This document shows, in pieces, positions 1-10,880 of a DNA stretch of 14,004 nucleotides. Made by a program: the position numbers and the translations under genes. The notes under the pieces were generated by a model that searched no databases, was not told the DNA's origin, and saw only the letters and a program-made list of their open reading frames with translations. This DNA is from Leptospiraceae bacterium. Its GTDB lineage: Bacteria > Spirochaetota > Leptospiria > Turneriellales > Turneriellaceae. The stretch covers positions 1-14,004 of the forward strand of contig JAEUSA010000432.1 in the NCBI GenBank assembly GCA_016788945.1, read 5' to 3'. Within the stretch, counting starts at the first letter, position 1; the number at the start of each line of letters is the position of its first letter.

Positions 1-400
1 TTTCGATACCGATTGCATGGCGGTTCAAACCGATGACATGTCTGCCGATATGATTCTCGGGCATCAGGCGAAAAATTTCGCCTGACTTCGCCACCAGAAA
101 CTGTACCGCGATGTTCGCGCCGCCCGCACTCTTCAGCAAACCCCGACCCGATTCCATCTCTTCGTTGTTGAGATAGTTAAACGAAGTCTCGAGCGAATCC
201 ATTGCGGTATAGTGCACAACAATCATGACCGGTAGCATTTCGAGCGAGTCGATCGACCGGTTGTAACGGTTGTTGATGTAGCGGATTGTCTCTTGTTTGC
301 GCCACTCAGAGAAAGAGATCGGTCGGTTGCGAATAGGATCACTCGAGCAGCCGACGAAAACGGCAGCGGCCAAGAGTGCAAACCATAACCTGATCAACAT
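1..400 (-). CDS. N-acetylmuramoyl-L-alanine amidase, lipoprotein (partial, C-terminus off the window)
   Basis: This is a peptidoglycan amidase of the Amidase_2 (AmpD/T7-lysozyme-like) type, predicted to cleave the bond between MurNAc and L-Ala in the periplasm. About 133 residues are visible. The start ATG is at 400-398 and overlaps the upstream peptidase stop by one base (TAATG), so the two are probably translationally coupled. The N-terminus is a short hydrophobic signal ending in FVGC, with the lipidated Cys at residue 18. Residues about 57-66 read PVMIVVHYTA, where His63 is the expected first zinc ligand. Near the edge, GRHVIGLNRHAIGIE matches the conserved Amidase_2 segment. The second His/Cys zinc ligands and the catalytic Glu/Lys would lie beyond the edge. 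It is the last visible gene of a minus-strand run with the S41 peptidase and the helical protein. The family call is firm; the exact substrate and any role in recycling are not visible. Confidence 0.85.
   Translation of the reverse strand, partial: MLIRLWFALLAAAVFVGCSSDPIRNRPISFSEWRKQETIRYINNRYNRSIDSLEMLPVMIVVHYTAMDSLETSFNYLNNEEMESGRGLLKSAGGANIAVQFLVAKSGEIFRLMPENHIGRHVIGLNRHAIGIE
64..85. repeat. 22-bp perfect inverted repeat inside the amidase gene
   Basis: The arms TCAGGCGAAA and TTTCGCCTGA are perfect 10-bp inverted copies separated by AA. The repeat lies in coding sequence (codons for SGEIFRLM). It has no T-run and is far from either gene end, so it is not an obvious terminator. Its role is unknown. 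Confidence 0.6.
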
Positions 401-1899
401 TATTTTCCGCTGCTGAGCAACTGCGTGGCATGCTCAATCAGAGTATCACGGCCTTGCGCAAAATCATCTGCTTTATCTTGCACAACAATGTCGGGCATGA
501 GCCCGCGCTGCTGCTGCTGCCCGTTCACCAACGGAAAAAAATCTACCTGTGCAAGCGGTACAAGAATGAGCAAAGCTGTGACGGGTAGCCGGTAGGTCAC
601 CAGAATATCTGCGGCATGGCCCGAACCGGGGCTGCCGGTTTCTTGCCCTACGAGCGTGACATTCGGGTTGCCGATCTTCAACAGGCGCGCAAAATTCACG
701 GCGGCCGAATAGGTTGCCGGCCCCATCAGCACGACAATACGCCGGAATTTATAGGCACCGCGCACGGGCTTTAGCTCCAGCTTGGTTGCGTCGTTGTTGC
801 GGACCTCAAAATAGCCATCTTGCATTTTATCGCTATAGAAATCTTGCATATGCTGCTCGACGCGCTTCAACATCATCTCTTCGGCATTTTCGGCATTGAG
901 GCCGACGATATGCTCGCGAAACGGAAGCATGCGGGTGCGAATGCGGTTACGGCTCTTATCGGTCAGCGGATTTTCCAGAAACCATTGCGCGGCAAAGGCC
1001 GAAAAATTCATGACTCCACCCTTATTCTGCCTGAGATCGATGATGAGATTTTCCGGTTTGCGCGCGTTTGCCTCGTTGTGCAGCAAACTCAGGTAGTTAT
1101 GCCAACTTTCGAATGAATCGAGCTGATTCATCGAAGGCATGAAGGTGTTTACGGCAAAATAGAGGGATTTCGCGCGCGGCACATACATGGTGACGAGAGG
1201 TTGCTGGTATTGCGAAAGTGAAAGCGAAGCACGCTGAATGCGCGGCGCATTACCACCTTCGCGGATTCGGTAATTCACAACACGCGCCGCGGCGGCGCGC
1301 GGCGGCCTGACACTCAGGCTCCATTCTTTTTCTTCGCCACGCGCGATGTAGTAAAGGAAGGAAAAATTCTCTTCGAGGCGGTAGTCATCCCACTTACCCG
1401 GCACCGATTGAATACCGAACACTTTGTTGATATCGCGCAGAATCTCAACCATCGGCCGGCCGTTGATATGCGTCAGCTCAGAACCGAATGGAATATCGTG
1501 GTACTCACAGTCGAAGTGCGCGTTTCCGTCGAAAAATTTCAAAGGAAACGGAAACATGGTATTACCGAGCCCGAGTTCTTCGATTAGCTCTGAAGAGAAG
1601 CCGATCTGCGTATGATCGACCTTAATGCCGCGGTAGTAGGCCAGCACACGCGCAATAAAATCGCGTATGCTGACGCGGCCTGCGTCTTTGAAAATATCGG
1701 GCACATCACCTTTCGGTATCTGCCTGAAGGCAGTGGCATGCGCCTGCGAAAAAATTGCATTCATCAGCCTGAAATCTGCGGCCGCGGCCGCAGATTCGAT
1801 GCCGTTTTTGCGCGTCGGCGCCGGCGCAGCAAATATGGTAAACGCGAGCGCCAGCAGCGGCGCGCGTCGCCAAACCATACGCAATGTTGCTTTCACCAC
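400..1899 (-). CDS. Exported S41-family peptidase (C-terminal-processing/tricorn-like)
   Basis: This is a 499-aa protein with an N-terminal signal sequence and a C-terminal S41 peptidase domain, probably acting in the periplasm. The listed start is GTG 1899; ATG 1878 (residue 8) gives an equally good signal peptide (VWRRAP, then a hydrophobic core to AAPAP), and neither has a clear Shine-Dalgarno. Residues about 95-101 (DHTQIGF) match the conserved Asp-x-His segment. Residues about 130-155 resemble a PDZ loop (PFGSELTHINGRP). Residues 286-295 (IIDLRQNKGG) and 393-402 (GPATYSAAVN, candidate nucleophile Ser398) are core S41 motifs, and RGLMPDIVV near 465-473 is the usual family ending. There is no Lys about 25 residues after Ser398 as in CtpA; instead QETG places Glu420 there. 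This fits a Ser/His/Glu arrangement (His96, Ser398, Glu420) better than a Ser/Lys dyad. The substrate is unknown. Confidence 0.82.
   Translation of the reverse strand: MVKATLRMVWRRAPLLALAFTIFAAPAPTRKNGIESAAAAADFRLMNAIFSQAHATAFRQIPKGDVPDIFKDAGRVSIRDFIARVLAYYRGIKVDHTQIGFSSELIEELGLGNTMFPFPLKFFDGNAHFDCEYHDIPFGSELTHINGRPMVEILRDINKVFGIQSVPGKWDDYRLEENFSFLYYIARGEEKEWSLSVRPPRAAAARVVNYRIREGGNAPRIQRASLSLSQYQQPLVTMYVPRAKSLYFAVNTFMPSMNQLDSFESWHNYLSLLHNEANARKPENLIIDLRQNKGGVMNFSAFAAQWFLENPLTDKSRNRIRTRMLPFREHIVGLNAENAEEMMLKRVEQHMQDFYSDKMQDGYFEVRNNDATKLELKPVRGAYKFRRIVVLMGPATYSAAVNFARLLKIGNPNVTLVGQETGSPGSGHAADILVTYRLPVTALLILVPLAQVDFFPLVNGQQQQRGLMPDIVVQDKADDFAQGRDTLIEHATQLLSSGK
1773..1796. repeat. 24-bp perfect palindrome in the signal-proximal part of the S41 gene
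   Basis: AATCTGCGGCCG is followed directly by its exact reverse complement. It encodes the Ser-(Ala)5 run around residues 36-41, just after the signal peptide. The GC-rich core contains a repeated GGCC. The alanine run alone does not require a perfect palindrome. No gene boundary or T-run is present, and the function is unknown. Confidence 0.6.
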
Positions 1900-6971: not shown

Positions 6972-7502
6972 GTGGCTTCCCTCATCACACATCCGGTTGT
7001 GCCGCTGAGCCTCGGCATCGCCATGGGCAGATCCAACATTCCGCTGAAAGCCGTCTTGCTCGGCGTGCTCCTGAGCATGCTGCCCGACGCCGACGTCATC
7101 GCCTTTCGCTTCGGCATTCCGTACGAACATGCGCTCGGCCACCGCGGTGTAACGCATTCGCTCGCGTTTGCGGCAATTCTCGCGCTGTGCCTGTGCTCTT
7201 TGCCCGCTTTCAGCGCGAGGCGCGGCCGTGTATTTCTATTTTTGCTGATCTCCGCGGCATCGCACGGCATACTCGATGCCTTAACCAATGGCGGGCTCGG
7301 CGTCGGTTTTTTTATTCCGGCGAACGACCATCGCTATTTTCTGCCGTGGCGCCCGATCAAGGTAAGCCCGCTCAGCGTGCAGGCATTTTTTTCTGCGCGT
7401 GGGTGGATTATTCTCAAATCGGAACTGACCGCCGTGTGGCTGCCTTGTCTCGCCGGTGCTCTGGCAATTTTCTGGATCAGGCGCGCTAAAGCCCGCGCTT
7501 AA
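6972..7502 (+). CDS. YdjM-type membrane-bound metal-dependent hydrolase family protein
   Basis: This 176-aa integral membrane protein matches the YdjM (LexA-regulated, DUF457-like) family. Visible signatures are His7 in SLITHPVVP, LPDAD (37-41), GHRGVTHS (56-63) and the distal SHGILDALT (97-105), whose His and Asp residues are the expected metal ligands. About four hydrophobic segments lie near residues 10-35, 62-80, 87-101 and 152-169. The start is GTG 6972, 6 nt after the VOC stop. Homologues are associated with phospholipase-like or DNA-damage-related functions, but the reaction is not established. It ends the three-gene plus-strand unit and its last 17 bp overlap the convergent COG3014 gene. 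Confidence 0.85.
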   Translation: MASLITHPVVPLSLGIAMGRSNIPLKAVLLGVLLSMLPDADVIAFRFGIPYEHALGHRGVTHSLAFAAILALCLCSLPAFSARRGRVFLFLLISAASHGILDALTNGGLGVGFFIPANDHRYFLPWRPIKVSPLSVQAFFSARGWIILKSELTAVWLPCLAGALAIFWIRRAKARA

Positions 7503-8856
7503 AGCTGCGCAGTGATACGAATGTCTTTTTACCAGGCCGAATCTCAACGGGCTGTTCGTGATTGCCGAGCACAACCAATCCTTCGGTCGCCGGTGTGCTG
7601 ATCTGATAGGTCCCTGCTGGCAACACTATGCGCAACGCGGAGAAGCGTGCCGGCAGCATGTGCCATGAGCGCAGGTCGGGTTTAACCGTCGCCGCCACAG
7701 CACCGCCCGCGCCGATGCCGACGGCAAGACCGCCAAGAGCGCCGACAATGCCGTTATCGTTTTTTCTGATCTGGCGCGCTACTGCATCGGCGGCAACCGC
7801 CGCAATCACGATTTTGGTCGCAATCGAAGCAACGTTCTTATTGATATACGAAGAATAGTTCTCATTAAAATTCTTTTCGGCGATCTGATCGAAGTCGGTC
7901 AATAGTGCGGGTTTCGGCACGGTTTTTTCGGCAACAGTGAGCGTAGGCAGCGAATCGGCGTCACGGAAGGAAAACTTCGGTATCGGATTTTCCGCGGTGC
8001 CCATCATCGCAATCACACCTGCAGTCGAAAGCCCCTTGCCGTGCGAGAGAATGGCGACGTCAATTGCCACCCTGAGCGCGATGGCGAATTCGCGGTCATT
8101 CATCAGATTGCCGCGACTCGCCTTGACGGCGGCTTTGCCCGATTGCACGAGCAGAACCAGCTCGCCGGCTTCTTTCATTTTTGCCGGCAGCTGCGGGCGG
8201 TGCGCGGCATGCTTTGCCATATCACCTGCATCGCCCGCGCGCATCGCGAGTAAATAGCGCTCGCCATGAATAAAGTCACGGTCAGCGCCAAACATCTCGA
8301 GATTTTTGTATTGCACGCGCGCATCGTTGAAAGCCCGAAGTTCTTCTGAAATCAGTGCGTCGAGATAGCGAGCCGCCAGAATCTGCTTAAAGGCAGAATC
8401 TTCGTATTTCATCTCTTTGAGATCTGCTTCAAGTTTGCGCAATGTGCGCTTGGCATTTTCCAGATCGCCGAGCAAAACCTGATTGAGCGCAATATAATAT
8501 TTGATGAGCACGCGTTCGAAATTTTCACCCTGAAACGCCGATTCGCGGTCATTCAGCAGAAAACTTTTCGCCGAATCGGTAATGCTCGTCTTGATTTCTT
8601 CGGCCATTTCGTCGGCACGGCGAAATATCTCATTGCTGGTTTCGTAATCCCCCTTGGTGTGGTAGACGACGCCTGCTTCCATATAAAACAGCAGCCGGTC
8701 ACGCGACGATGAATCTTGCGCGAGCGGAGTGATTTTCGTCACTGCACCGTCAATGTCGCCCGAATAAAAGGACTCTTCTGTGCCCTGTATTTTTTTCTGA
8801 TACGACCCGGCGCAGGCAACGGCTGACATCACCACAATGAGAGCAGCTGCTCTCAT
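7486..8856 (-). CDS. COG3014-family lipoprotein, partner of the LpoB-like protein
   Basis: This is a 456-aa envelope lipoprotein. I chose ATG 8856, which starts MRAAALIVVMSAVAC with the lipidated Cys at residue 15; GTG 8871 would put five residues before it. Residues about 20-210 are helical and TPR-like (GDIDGAVTKI, GVVYHTKGDYETSNEIF, QVLLGDLENAKRTL). A short Gly/Ala-rich hydrophobic stretch (GALGGLAVGIGAGGAVAA) lies near residues 365-382. The C-terminal segment DLRSWHMLPARF, then LPAGTY, is the part I recognise from COG3014 proteins, which often sit next to LpoB-like lipoproteins. The function of the family is not established. The start codon and signal-peptide codons lie inside a 38-bp perfect palindrome. 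The 3' end overlaps the convergent YdjM-type gene. Confidence 0.8.
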   Translation of the reverse strand: MRAAALIVVMSAVACAGSYQKKIQGTEESFYSGDIDGAVTKITPLAQDSSSRDRLLFYMEAGVVYHTKGDYETSNEIFRRADEMAEEIKTSITDSAKSFLLNDRESAFQGENFERVLIKYYIALNQVLLGDLENAKRTLRKLEADLKEMKYEDSAFKQILAARYLDALISEELRAFNDARVQYKNLEMFGADRDFIHGERYLLAMRAGDAGDMAKHAAHRPQLPAKMKEAGELVLLVQSGKAAVKASRGNLMNDREFAIALRVAIDVAILSHGKGLSTAGVIAMMGTAENPIPKFSFRDADSLPTLTVAEKTVPKPALLTDFDQIAEKNFNENYSSYINKNVASIATKIVIAAVAADAVARQIRKNDNGIVGALGGLAVGIGAGGAVAATVKPDLRSWHMLPARFSALRIVLPAGTYQISTPATEGLVVLGNHEQPVEIRPGKKTFVSLRSFKRGL

Positions 8857-8865
8857 TGTGGTGAT
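8828..8865. repeat. 38-bp perfect palindrome across the LpoB-like/COG3014 junction
   Basis: A 19-nt arm (8828-8846, beginning ATCACCACAATG) is followed with no spacer by its exact reverse complement (8847-8865). In the minus-strand transcript it runs from the last base of the LpoB-like stop codon, through the COG3014 start codon, to the end of the hydrophobic signal core. As RNA it could fold into a stem of about 17 bp with an AGCU loop that buries the AUG. There is no T-run after it, so it is not a standard terminator. Confidence 0.75.
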
Positions 8866-9440
8866 TACCACGTAACGCCGCCCTTCTGGTTTCGCGGCTT
8901 CTTACGGTAGACAATGCGCTCGCTGAACACAACGAGTTGTGTTTCGACGGAGCGCAGTTCGAAATTCAATATTTGCTCGACGATACGGTCACCGCCGCTC
9001 TTGAACAGGTTTTCGGTTATTTCGGCCTGAATGAAAAAATTGGGGCTGCGCATTTTACCGGCTGAAATTCCGGTTGCCGTTGCACCGGTCTGGCTGAACG
9101 CAATTTCTGATAGTGCCTTCGTGCGGTCTTCAACACGCACGGTATAAATTTTTGCCGTCAGCAGATCGCCGACAACCCGGTTATCGAAAACATTGACGGG
9201 CAACTGCTCCGACGTATCGTTTTTCGTGGGCAGAAATGCCACAAACAAACCATCGGGCGGCACATTCTTCGCAAAGTGCGCCTTAACCTTTTGTGCGAGT
9301 TCACCCGCAGCGCGCTCGAGTTCACCCCGGGTCAGCTCACCCGAATCGGCCAGCATGTCTTGACCTGCATCGAGTCGCTTGGTGGTGGTCGTACAGGCGG
9401 CAAGCAAGGCAACCGCCGCCAGCATAGTTAGTCGCAGCAT
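8865..9440 (-). CDS. LpoB-like penicillin-binding-protein activator lipoprotein
   Basis: This 191-aa outer-membrane lipoprotein resembles LpoB (COG3417), which activates the peptidoglycan synthase PBP1B in gamma-proteobacteria. I chose ATG 9440, which starts MLRLTMLAAVALLAAC, a standard lipobox with the lipidated Cys at residue 16. The open frame continues to 9602, but that extension lacks signal character and runs into the divergent dedA start. A hydrophilic linker (about 17-60) is followed by the globular domain, with GLFVAFLPTKNDTSEQLPV (about 64-82) and VFDNRVVGDLL (84-94) matching the LpoB pattern, then FIQAEITENLF and beta strands to the end. The COG3014 gene starts 8 nt after the stop. 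PBP activation in this organism is inferred from family alone. Confidence 0.8.
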   Translation of the reverse strand: MLRLTMLAAVALLAACTTTTKRLDAGQDMLADSGELTRGELERAAGELAQKVKAHFAKNVPPDGLFVAFLPTKNDTSEQLPVNVFDNRVVGDLLTAKIYTVRVEDRTKALSEIAFSQTGATATGISAGKMRSPNFFIQAEITENLFKSGGDRIVEQILNFELRSVETQLVVFSERIVYRKKPRNQKGGVTW

Positions 9441-9591
9441 AGACCCAAAACAGCCAGCGGACAGGGTGCGACAAGGATTATTGCATTCAGTGCCAAAAAA
9501 ATCCCCCGCGTCACGAACGATCGGCGATAGCAAACATTCGTTTCTATAGATATTAATTGCCAGAATACCGGGCACGGGAAGAATAGTAAAC
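9441..9591. promoter_or_regulatory. Divergent LpoB-like/dedA intergenic region
   Basis: At 151 bp this is the largest non-coding stretch in the window. It must contain start signals for both directions. The AT-rich core at 9541-9557 holds TCTATAGA, a palindrome that provides a -10-like TATAGA on either strand, but I find no matching -35. GGGAAGA lies 11 nt before the dedA ATG as a probable ribosome-binding site. No FabR-type or other clear operator is visible. Confidence 0.35.
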
Positions 9592-10236
9592 ATGGAGTTC
9601 ATTATCTCCGCTTTAGACGTTGTGCTCCATCTTGAGCGCTACCTTGATACTTGGGCGGTACAGTATGGTATATGGATGTACGCTATTCTTTTTGGCGTCA
9701 TCTTCGCGGAGACCGGCCTTGTGATCACGCCGTTTTTACCCGGTGACTCCCTGCTGTTCGCCATCGGGGCGATCGCGGCGCGCGGAGTACTTTCGCTGCC
9801 GATGATATTGATCGGCCTTTCGATAGCCGCCATTCTCGGCGACATGGTTAATTATTCTGTCGGTAAATTTTTGGGCGAATTCGTGACGCGAAAATTTTCG
9901 CGCATCGTGAAGCCGGAATATATTCAGAAGACTCACGACTTTTATGAAAAATACGGGAATAAGACGATCGTTCTCGCCCGCTTCGTGCCGATTGTGCGCA
10001 CGATCGCTCCTTTTGTCGCAGGCATCGCCGGCATGCGTTACCGTGATTTTGCCATCTTCAATGTCGCCGGCGGAGTATTCTGGATTCTGTCGATGACACT
10101 TGCGGGTTATGCGTTCGGCAACCTCGATTTTATCCGCAAACATTTCAGTCTCGTTGTACTAGGCATCGTTTTTATTTCACTATTGCCCATGGTTTACGAA
10201 TATTTTCAGATTCGCTCGCTGAATAAACAAAAATGA
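9592..10236 (+). CDS. DedA-family membrane protein (candidate undecaprenyl-phosphate or lipid flippase)
   Basis: This 214-aa inner-membrane protein is of the DedA/VTT family, members of which recycle undecaprenyl phosphate or scramble phospholipids. The signature GVIFAETGLVITPFLPGDSL spans residues 35-54 and RFVPIVRTIAPFVAGIAGM spans 130-148. Glu40, Asp52, Arg130 and Arg136 align with the four charged residues reported as essential in E. coli YqjA (Glu39, Asp51, Arg130, Arg136), and the spacing fits. Hydrophobic segments lie near 28-48, 52-62, 68-84, 138-147, 155-175 and 184-202. The start is ATG 9592. It overlaps the downstream regulator start by 4 nt (ATGA), so DedA and the FabR-like protein are translationally coupled. 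The cargo of this homologue is unproven. Confidence 0.93.
   Translation: MEFIISALDVVLHLERYLDTWAVQYGIWMYAILFGVIFAETGLVITPFLPGDSLLFAIGAIAARGVLSLPMILIGLSIAAILGDMVNYSVGKFLGEFVTRKFSRIVKPEYIQKTHDFYEKYGNKTIVLARFVPIVRTIAPFVAGIAGMRYRDFAIFNVAGGVFWILSMTLAGYAFGNLDFIRKHFSLVVLGIVFISLLPMVYEYFQIRSLNKQK
9887..9902. repeat. 16-bp perfect palindrome inside dedA
   Basis: CGCGAAAA is followed directly by TTTTCGCG within the codons for TRKFSRI. It is shorter than the other palindromes and could arise from codon choice. It is recorded because it shares the CGCGAAA/TTTCGCG style of the repeat at 64-85. Confidence 0.4.
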
Positions 10237-10880
10237 AAAAATCCCAGCAACGCCTCAAAACCCACCGCGCGCTGATGGTTGCCGCCATTAAGCTGATGAG
10301 CGACGATCGCAGTTTTTCGTCGATCAGCCTGCGCGAAGTTACACGCGAGGCCGGCGTTGTGCCCGCTACGTTCTACCGCCATTTCAACGAAATGGAAGAT
10401 CTGGCCGTCGAACTGGTGGATTACTGTTTCAGGCCGATGGAGAATCTCGTCGCGGGGGTTCGCGCACGCCGCCTGACCGCACGCCAGCTGGTCTACGAAT
10501 CTGTGGGCACCTTCATTCGTTTTGCGCGGCGGCACCGCCGGTATTTTCTCTTTCTCACCAAAGAAAGGCTCGGCGGCCGAGTACGAGTGCGTACCCGCAT
10601 TCGTGAGCAAATACGCGATATGGCGCTCATTCTCGGACACGACCTTATTGGTCTGCCCGAATGGCAGGGCGTACCGATCGGCATAGGGCAAGAAGTAGCG
10701 CAGCTGATTATGGATCAGATGATGCTGATTCTCGATGAGGTGCTCGATCTGCCACCGACAGGTGAAAAAAATGAAGAAGTGAAGATTATTGCCCGTGCGC
10801 GCAAAAAGGTATGGATTCTACTGCGCGGCGGATTATCGTATCAAGACCGCCGCGGTACTCGCCTGAAAGGCAGCGGCTGA
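10233..10880 (+). CDS. FabR-like TetR-family regulator
   Basis: This 215-aa TetR-family protein has an N-terminal domain very close to FabR, the repressor of unsaturated fatty-acid synthesis in gamma-proteobacteria. SFSSISLREVTREAGVVPAT (27-46) followed by FYRHF matches the FabR helix-turn-helix wording almost residue for residue. The rest is helical; residues 95-125 are strikingly Arg-rich (RFARRHRRYF, RVRVRTRIREQ). FabR senses the acyl-CoA/acyl-ACP pool and adjusts membrane fluidity. The start ATG 10233 overlaps the dedA stop (ATGA). Pairing with dedA suggests control of membrane lipid composition together with lipid transport. The gene ends directly against the atpC stop on the other strand. 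True FabR function is inferred. Confidence 0.85.
   Translation: MKKSQQRLKTHRALMVAAIKLMSDDRSFSSISLREVTREAGVVPATFYRHFNEMEDLAVELVDYCFRPMENLVAGVRARRLTARQLVYESVGTFIRFARRHRRYFLFLTKERLGGRVRVRTRIREQIRDMALILGHDLIGLPEWQGVPIGIGQEVAQLIMDQMMLILDEVLDLPPTGEKNEEVKIIARARKKVWILLRGGLSYQDRRGTRLKGSG

Follow-up and report, generated by a model that had tools for sequence, protein, structure and literature searches.

What is a perfect 38-bp palindrome doing at the boundary of two lipoprotein genes, and does it hide the start of the second? The question arises at one junction of the window, by which we mean the whole 14,004-nucleotide stretch analysed here (contig JAEUSA010000432.1, from a Leptospiraceae bacterium). 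The initial annotation held that the palindrome buries the start codon of the downstream gene. From our comparison across the genus, it resembles a member of a numerous set of stop-codon hairpins more than a start-codon switch. The locus deserves attention because it has a long inverted repeat whose two arms fall mostly in signal-peptide codons and keep their complementarity as most of their letters change. A free-living spirochaete that can be cultured would allow two tests: do U-less hairpins at stop codons determine how much of one gene product is made relative to its neighbour, and does DNA template switching account here for the compensatory change that is commonly read as proving RNA function?

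The palindrome and the two lipoprotein genes

The features of the junction are as follows.

7486..8856, minus strand: COG3014-like lipoprotein gene, N-terminus MRAAALIVVMSAVAC, counted from ATG 8856; with GTG as the start, it would extend to 8871
8828..8865, both strands: 38-bp perfect palindrome (palindrome search, RNAfold); in minus-strand mRNA a predicted hairpin with loop AGCU
8854..8856, minus strand: candidate start ATG, within the hairpin stem (paired in the fold)
8865..9440, minus strand: LpoB-like lipoprotein gene (PF13036, E 2.5e-12), stop TAA at 8867-8865
8869..8871, minus strand: alternative in-frame start GTG, in a 7-nt overlap with the LpoB-like stop and outside the palindrome
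8878..8885, minus strand: Shine-Dalgarno-like sequence AAGGGCGG (the label is our reading), six bases 5' of GTG 8871 and within the LpoB-like coding sequence

As the initial annotation had it, the palindrome at 8828-8865 is exact, its 19-bp arms matching at 19 of 19 positions without a spacer, and it lies beyond chance: at the base composition of the window, 5.5e-8 centres of this kind are expected per window and 1.5e-5 per 3.7 Mb. When its own 3.7-Mb genome (G000, a draft of 465 contigs) was searched, the palindrome matched only itself, on its two strands; it thus occupies a single place there, where a REP-like element would have several genomic copies. Among perfect palindromes that lack a spacer and have arms of 10 or more, the window has just one more (1773-1796, 24 bp; 0.0009 such expected per window). 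It lies within the N-terminal part of an S41-peptidase-like open reading frame (400-1899, minus strand), near the expected end of an export signal.

Read along the minus-strand mRNA, the palindrome has the final A of the LpoB-like TAA as its first base and runs into the signal-peptide codons of the COG3014-like gene, and the stem of about 17 bp anticipated for the transcript was reproduced by RNAfold, which gives 17 bp closed by a 4-nt loop. The 151-nt stretch around the junction reaches a z of -3.47 against dinucleotide shuffles, with 0 of 200 equally good. Across the window, nothing matched Rfam at the gathering threshold, and a promoter scan of 7000-10600 returned scores not above those of shuffles. 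An intrinsic (rho-independent) terminator was considered and rejected: the mRNA 3' of the palindrome, GTCAGCCG, contains no U-tract, and no terminator-like site was called at the palindrome.

The two genes are adjacent and co-directional, with this stable hairpin at their boundary. The LpoB-like protein falls short of the NCBIfam threshold for LpoB. Against Pfam and NCBIfam, the COG3014-like protein reached no family cut-off and matched no model; a 44%-identical Leptospira relative bears the name 'COG3014 family protein'. Of 33 related proteins read (among P0001-P0034), 7 have the pattern R-A-x-A-L in their signal peptide and 14 a looser variant; as DNA, this pattern can be self-complementary.

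The initial interpretation is supported in part, but that the palindrome exists to bury the COG3014 start is not secured. ATG 8856 is indeed paired, and by our reading it has no Shine-Dalgarno-like sequence at normal spacing; the in-frame GTG 8871, which had gone unmentioned, lies outside the palindrome, and its slot is filled by ATG in the congener G004 and by TTG in G005. Related proteins, available as proteins only and with starts predicted by their source, are divided. P0011, P0013, P0017 and P0023 have MV... N-termini of the length given by the equivalent G004 start, and neither P0013 nor P0023 has an internal Met at the equivalent of ATG 8856. The nearest relatives, P0002-P0010, are 76-80% identical; of these, P0002, P0004, P0005 and P0010 start at the M-R that corresponds to ATG 8856. 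With GTG 8871 outside the stem and the relatives' predicted starts split in this way, burial of the COG3014 start is possible but uncertain. Whichever start is used, an initiating ribosome could probably reach the hairpin.

The junction in other genomes

Six of the seven genus genomes contain each of the two genes; the exception (G002) is an incomplete draft. In G000, G004 and G005, compared ungapped and anchored on the lipobox Cys codon, an inverted repeat is centred 32 nt 5' of that codon; with G-U counted, 16/16, 15/16 and 15/16 pairs form at this centre, respectively, and no rival symmetry centre in these loci is as good. The letters themselves differ widely: G004 and G005 have 14 and 18 of the 38 arm letters in common with the window and 21 in common with each other (37-55% overall), and for these species pairs 10, 7 and 5 of the 19 pairs are altered on both sides yet still pair. 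Paired compensatory changes, for which a comparison of sister genomes had been proposed, are therefore present in G004 and G005, and in these loci the arms are shown to remain complementary while most letters change. At this junction the G004 stem holds three non-Watson-Crick pairs in its outer 16, all of them G-U and too few to judge.

An ungapped alignment of these three junctions, trimmed at the lipobox Cys codon, has two-sided changes in 11 of 17 pairs. Of its cells, 94.1% pair, a level that none of 500 shuffles reaches, and slid structures pair 31-55%. In these figures the selection favours the structure, as the rows were picked after the shared centre was seen and G001, G003 and G006 were left out. 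A MAFFT alignment of all six junctions was gapped, of no use, and dropped.

The shared-centre hairpin is thus found in three of the six gene-bearing members, the remaining three having weak or shifted ones. G001 has an 8-bp stem with the AUG in its loop, G003 a broken stem, and G006 a stem of 10 pairs (two of them G-U) over the GTG start, read by hand and differing from the predicted fold. Against synonymous-codon nulls, folds as good as the real one number 17 per 1000 in G000, 0 in G004 and 35 in G005; the corresponding figures of 113 for G001, 221 for G006 and 870 for G003 indicate no better folding than the nulls. The initial annotation had counted against itself any relatives that keep the protein without the symmetry and without compensatory substitutions. 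This applies in part: the gene pair persists in G001, G003 and G006, where the hairpins are no more than weak or displaced, but G004 and G005 show the compensatory changes. Such paired changes are nevertheless insufficient to secure the burial of a start, since DNA template switching is reported to yield them without selection (PMC8794818).

Because the branching of the genus was not resolved in a COG3014 tree, gains and losses of the hairpin were left uncounted. Outside the genus, 11 further junctions were folded and none was comparably strong, the lowest z being -2.25. By stem score, the junction is the best of 98 tight co-directional junctions sampled in its own genome, sixth of 418 in G004 and unremarkable in G006. 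Among the junctions examined, its hairpin is the most widely kept.

Hairpins at stop codons in the genus

Hairpins of this kind are best seen in G004, of which 1.2 Mb (27% of the chromosome) was surveyed, with genes taken as mechanically called long open reading frames whose starts are uncertain and whose stops are not. This stretch contains 100 perfect stems of at least 12 with loops of up to 9. In co-directional neighbourhoods, 49 of 65 such stems start between -15 and +33 nt from the upstream stop; elsewhere, 185 convergent gaps hold 22 and 181 divergent gaps hold 9, even though there is more DNA in the divergent ones (17.8 vs 10.0 kb). Stems with arms of at least 10 have their centres concentrated 0-40 nt past stops in tight, spaced and convergent settings alike. 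Strong stems follow 14 of 422 tight, 31 of 272 spaced and 40 of 369 convergent stops, compared with 2 of 836 internal controls, and a T-tract (at least 5 T in the next eight bases) comes after 5 of the 85 strong stop-side stems. Loop lengths of 3 and 4 account for 28 of 49. Per stop, stems of at least 12 number 42/703 in G004, 3/160 in the own-genome sample and 3/235 in G006.

By our reading of start positions, the next start at tight junctions may come after the hairpin (e.g. L095, L121), inside it (the LpoB-like/COG3014-like pair, L044, FlgI) or before it (FlgH, L124). The stop is thus the common anchor, which speaks against the idea that the palindrome exists to bury a start. Several hairpins lie within export signals, again as we read them: those of FlgI, FlgH, a LolA-like protein and its neighbour, the ankyrin protein L124 and the cytochrome-peroxidase-like L029.

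Inverted repeats on the far side of stop codons are reported as a general bacterial feature, with an excess of stem-loops just 3' of stops (PMC1590033; PMC13155455), and the placement is the same here. Those repeats are described in the same sources as mostly intergenic and tied to rho-independent termination, whereas here the next gene is overlapped and there is no T-tract. Among the open-licence papers listed, none appears to describe such a hairpin set for Turneriella, as the genus is presumably named.

Possible origin and role of the hairpin

If pairing is selected in the transcript, G-U should be tolerated over A-C. For stems of at least 12 at 191 E. coli stops, 12 are found with G-U allowed and 3 with A-C allowed. 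At 703 stops of G004 the numbers are 50 and 51, at 160 of G000 they are 3 and 3, and at 235 of G006 they are 6 and 3. The 61 near-perfect G004 hairpins contain 6 G-U, 6 A-C and 4 other mismatches. That G-U has no preference over A-C in G004 argues against selection purely at the RNA level.

Comparison of other G004 hairpins with their orthologues shows turnover. The hairpin in the FlgH signal peptide has the loop GAA in G004 and TTC, its reverse complement, in the near relative G002 (a spacer inversion; the text-pattern reading of orthologues was correct for FlgH in G002 only). The FlgI start hairpin, which spans the FlgH stop and the FlgI start (L116 7536-9313, L173), is identical in G002, eroded in G005 and absent from G003 and G006, the contig being cut in G001 and the gene not found in G000. 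In the LolA-like gene (L178, L180), an in-frame hairpin spans the signal-peptide cleavage region; it covaries in G002, where codon pairs co-change relative to G004 (e.g. CAA..TTG to CAG..CTG), is short in G000 and G001, and is not evident in G006. The ankyrin-protein hairpin, compared between G004 and G002, is interrupted in the latter. That of MurC (Mur ligase) is absent from all three orthologues read, and for the iron alcohol dehydrogenase G002 retains the hairpin, G005 has part of it and three further orthologues lack it, with G000 misplaced by the text-pattern reading. The L121 hairpin is absent from both orthologues read; the text patterns did not find the gene in G000 or G006. A strand bias of triloops (GNA 9 vs TNC 1 among 19 with arms of at least 12; 10 vs 3, p 0.09, with arms of at least 9 and G000 added) was left unused.

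Our preferred reading, to which we give a probability of just under one half (about 0.48), is that the palindrome is a U-less operon-junction hairpin which by position belongs to the LpoB-like gene and has a protective or processing role. It would be a member of the set of long, near-perfect U-less hairpins at or just past stop codons; because the next gene begins without a spacer, it occupies the COG3014 start region and signal-peptide codons, which presumably tolerate it. After cleavage further downstream, the hairpin would block 3'-5' exonucleases and so keep the LpoB-like message above the COG3014-like message. It may also make independent COG3014 initiation less frequent when no ribosome comes through from the LpoB-like gene, and DNA template switching may contribute by copying either arm anew from its partner while selection retains a hairpin here. 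The exonuclease barrier, the effect on protein ratio and the respective shares of template switching and selection are all what we infer. In favour of a protective hairpin are the shared centre, the two-sided changes, the stop anchoring, the excess of convergent over divergent gaps and the scarcity of U-tracts. It is weakened by G001, G003 and G006, which retain the genes without a comparable hairpin, by the sparseness of the set in the own-genome sample and by the G-U result in G004. The nearest precedent is the malE-malF type of differentially decaying operon (Dar and Sorek 2018, PMC5927463). In E. coli, U-less hairpins within the downstream coding sequence are reported to protect the upstream message, 17 of a protective set of 26 lying within that sequence (PMC5927463). 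There as here, a stable hairpin without a U-tract stands between co-directional genes, often within the downstream coding sequence; there it is conserved in relatives, here its centre is shared by three of the six genus members with the gene. The present case differs in being a near-perfect palindrome at the stop, mostly in signal-peptide codons and with letters replaced pairwise.

Translational coupling, in which the COG3014 start stays hidden in the stem until opened by a ribosome that completes the LpoB-like gene, so that the lipoprotein ratio is fixed, was the role first proposed, and we regard it as unlikely, if still a serious contender. It accords with the pairing of ATG 8856 and of its equivalents in the G004 and G005 stems, with the GTG in the hand-read G006 stem and the AUG in the G001 loop, with stops and starts a few bases apart in G000, G004, G005 and G006, and with the four nearer proteins that begin at M-R. 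RNA unfolding is moreover a recognised coupling model, and the systems concerned resemble this junction in their nearly touching stop and start and in the structure over the initiation region (PMC12548453). However, the GTG, ATG or TTG at the LpoB-like stop sits outside the stem and has a Shine-Dalgarno-like sequence, P0013 and P0023 could not start at an internal Met, other hairpins of the set have no start in the stem, and structure just past an upstream stop is reported to reduce coupling (PMC12548453). Unlike in those systems, the start used here may be either GTG 8871 or ATG 8856. Slightly less probable still is a functionless product of template switching, a self-correcting quasipalindrome tolerated by a weakly constrained signal peptide and spacer. 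Template switching is described as homogenising arms and inverting spacers (PMC8604942) besides making compensatory changes (PMC8794818), and such an origin would fit the G-U counts of G004, the FlgH loop inversion, the several hairpins in signal peptides and the rapid turnover at MurC, FlgI and L121. SbcD is over the NCBIfam cut-off in 0 of 7 genus genomes but also in only 10 of 48 of the class, so that its loss was rejected as too weak an argument. The junction itself has the homogenised arms and mirrored multi-base changes of a quasipalindrome, but selection could give the same pattern. Against a functionless product, stop anchoring and the convergent over divergent excess are unexpected for a neutral process, and one centre is kept in three species despite 37-55% arm identity. 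Known template-switch quasipalindromes share with these hairpins perfect arms, multi-base compensatory changes and a location within coding sequence, and spacer inversion of their type (PMC8604942) is known here from FlgH; unlike the systems compared, the present hairpins are bacterial, short and tied to stop codons and export signals (PMC8794818; PMC8604942; PMC6649704).

Perfect two-fold symmetry would also suit a DNA operator bound by a dimeric protein, which we nonetheless hold to be very improbable: the letters at the same centre differ among species, there is no second genomic copy, and the site is a gene junction inside an operon in a region where promoter scores did not exceed those of shuffles. 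Least probable of all is an assembly artefact. The assembly is a 465-contig draft, but same-centred inverted repeats with other letters occur in two other assemblies, one of them a 2-contig genome, and a database protein with 2 residue differences in 461 has the identical N-terminus.

Returning to the protective hairpin, its possible maintenance by recopying raises a broader and rather doubtful proposal, namely that DNA template switching writes part of the signal peptides and gene junctions of the genus, as an inverted repeat retained for its hairpin copies one of its arms again and again from the other. If so, an exported protein would have an N-terminus that evolves as a reverse complement of the protein's own codons and spacer further upstream, and the R-A-x-A-L of COG3014 signal peptides would be a side effect of palindromy.

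Separately, three families of repeated spacerless palindromes were seen in G004 (L028, L030, L036, L045, L092, L096, L099, L110, L129), with centre sequences found 5, 3 and 3 times per 1.2 Mb and cores of TTTAAA or AATTAATT.
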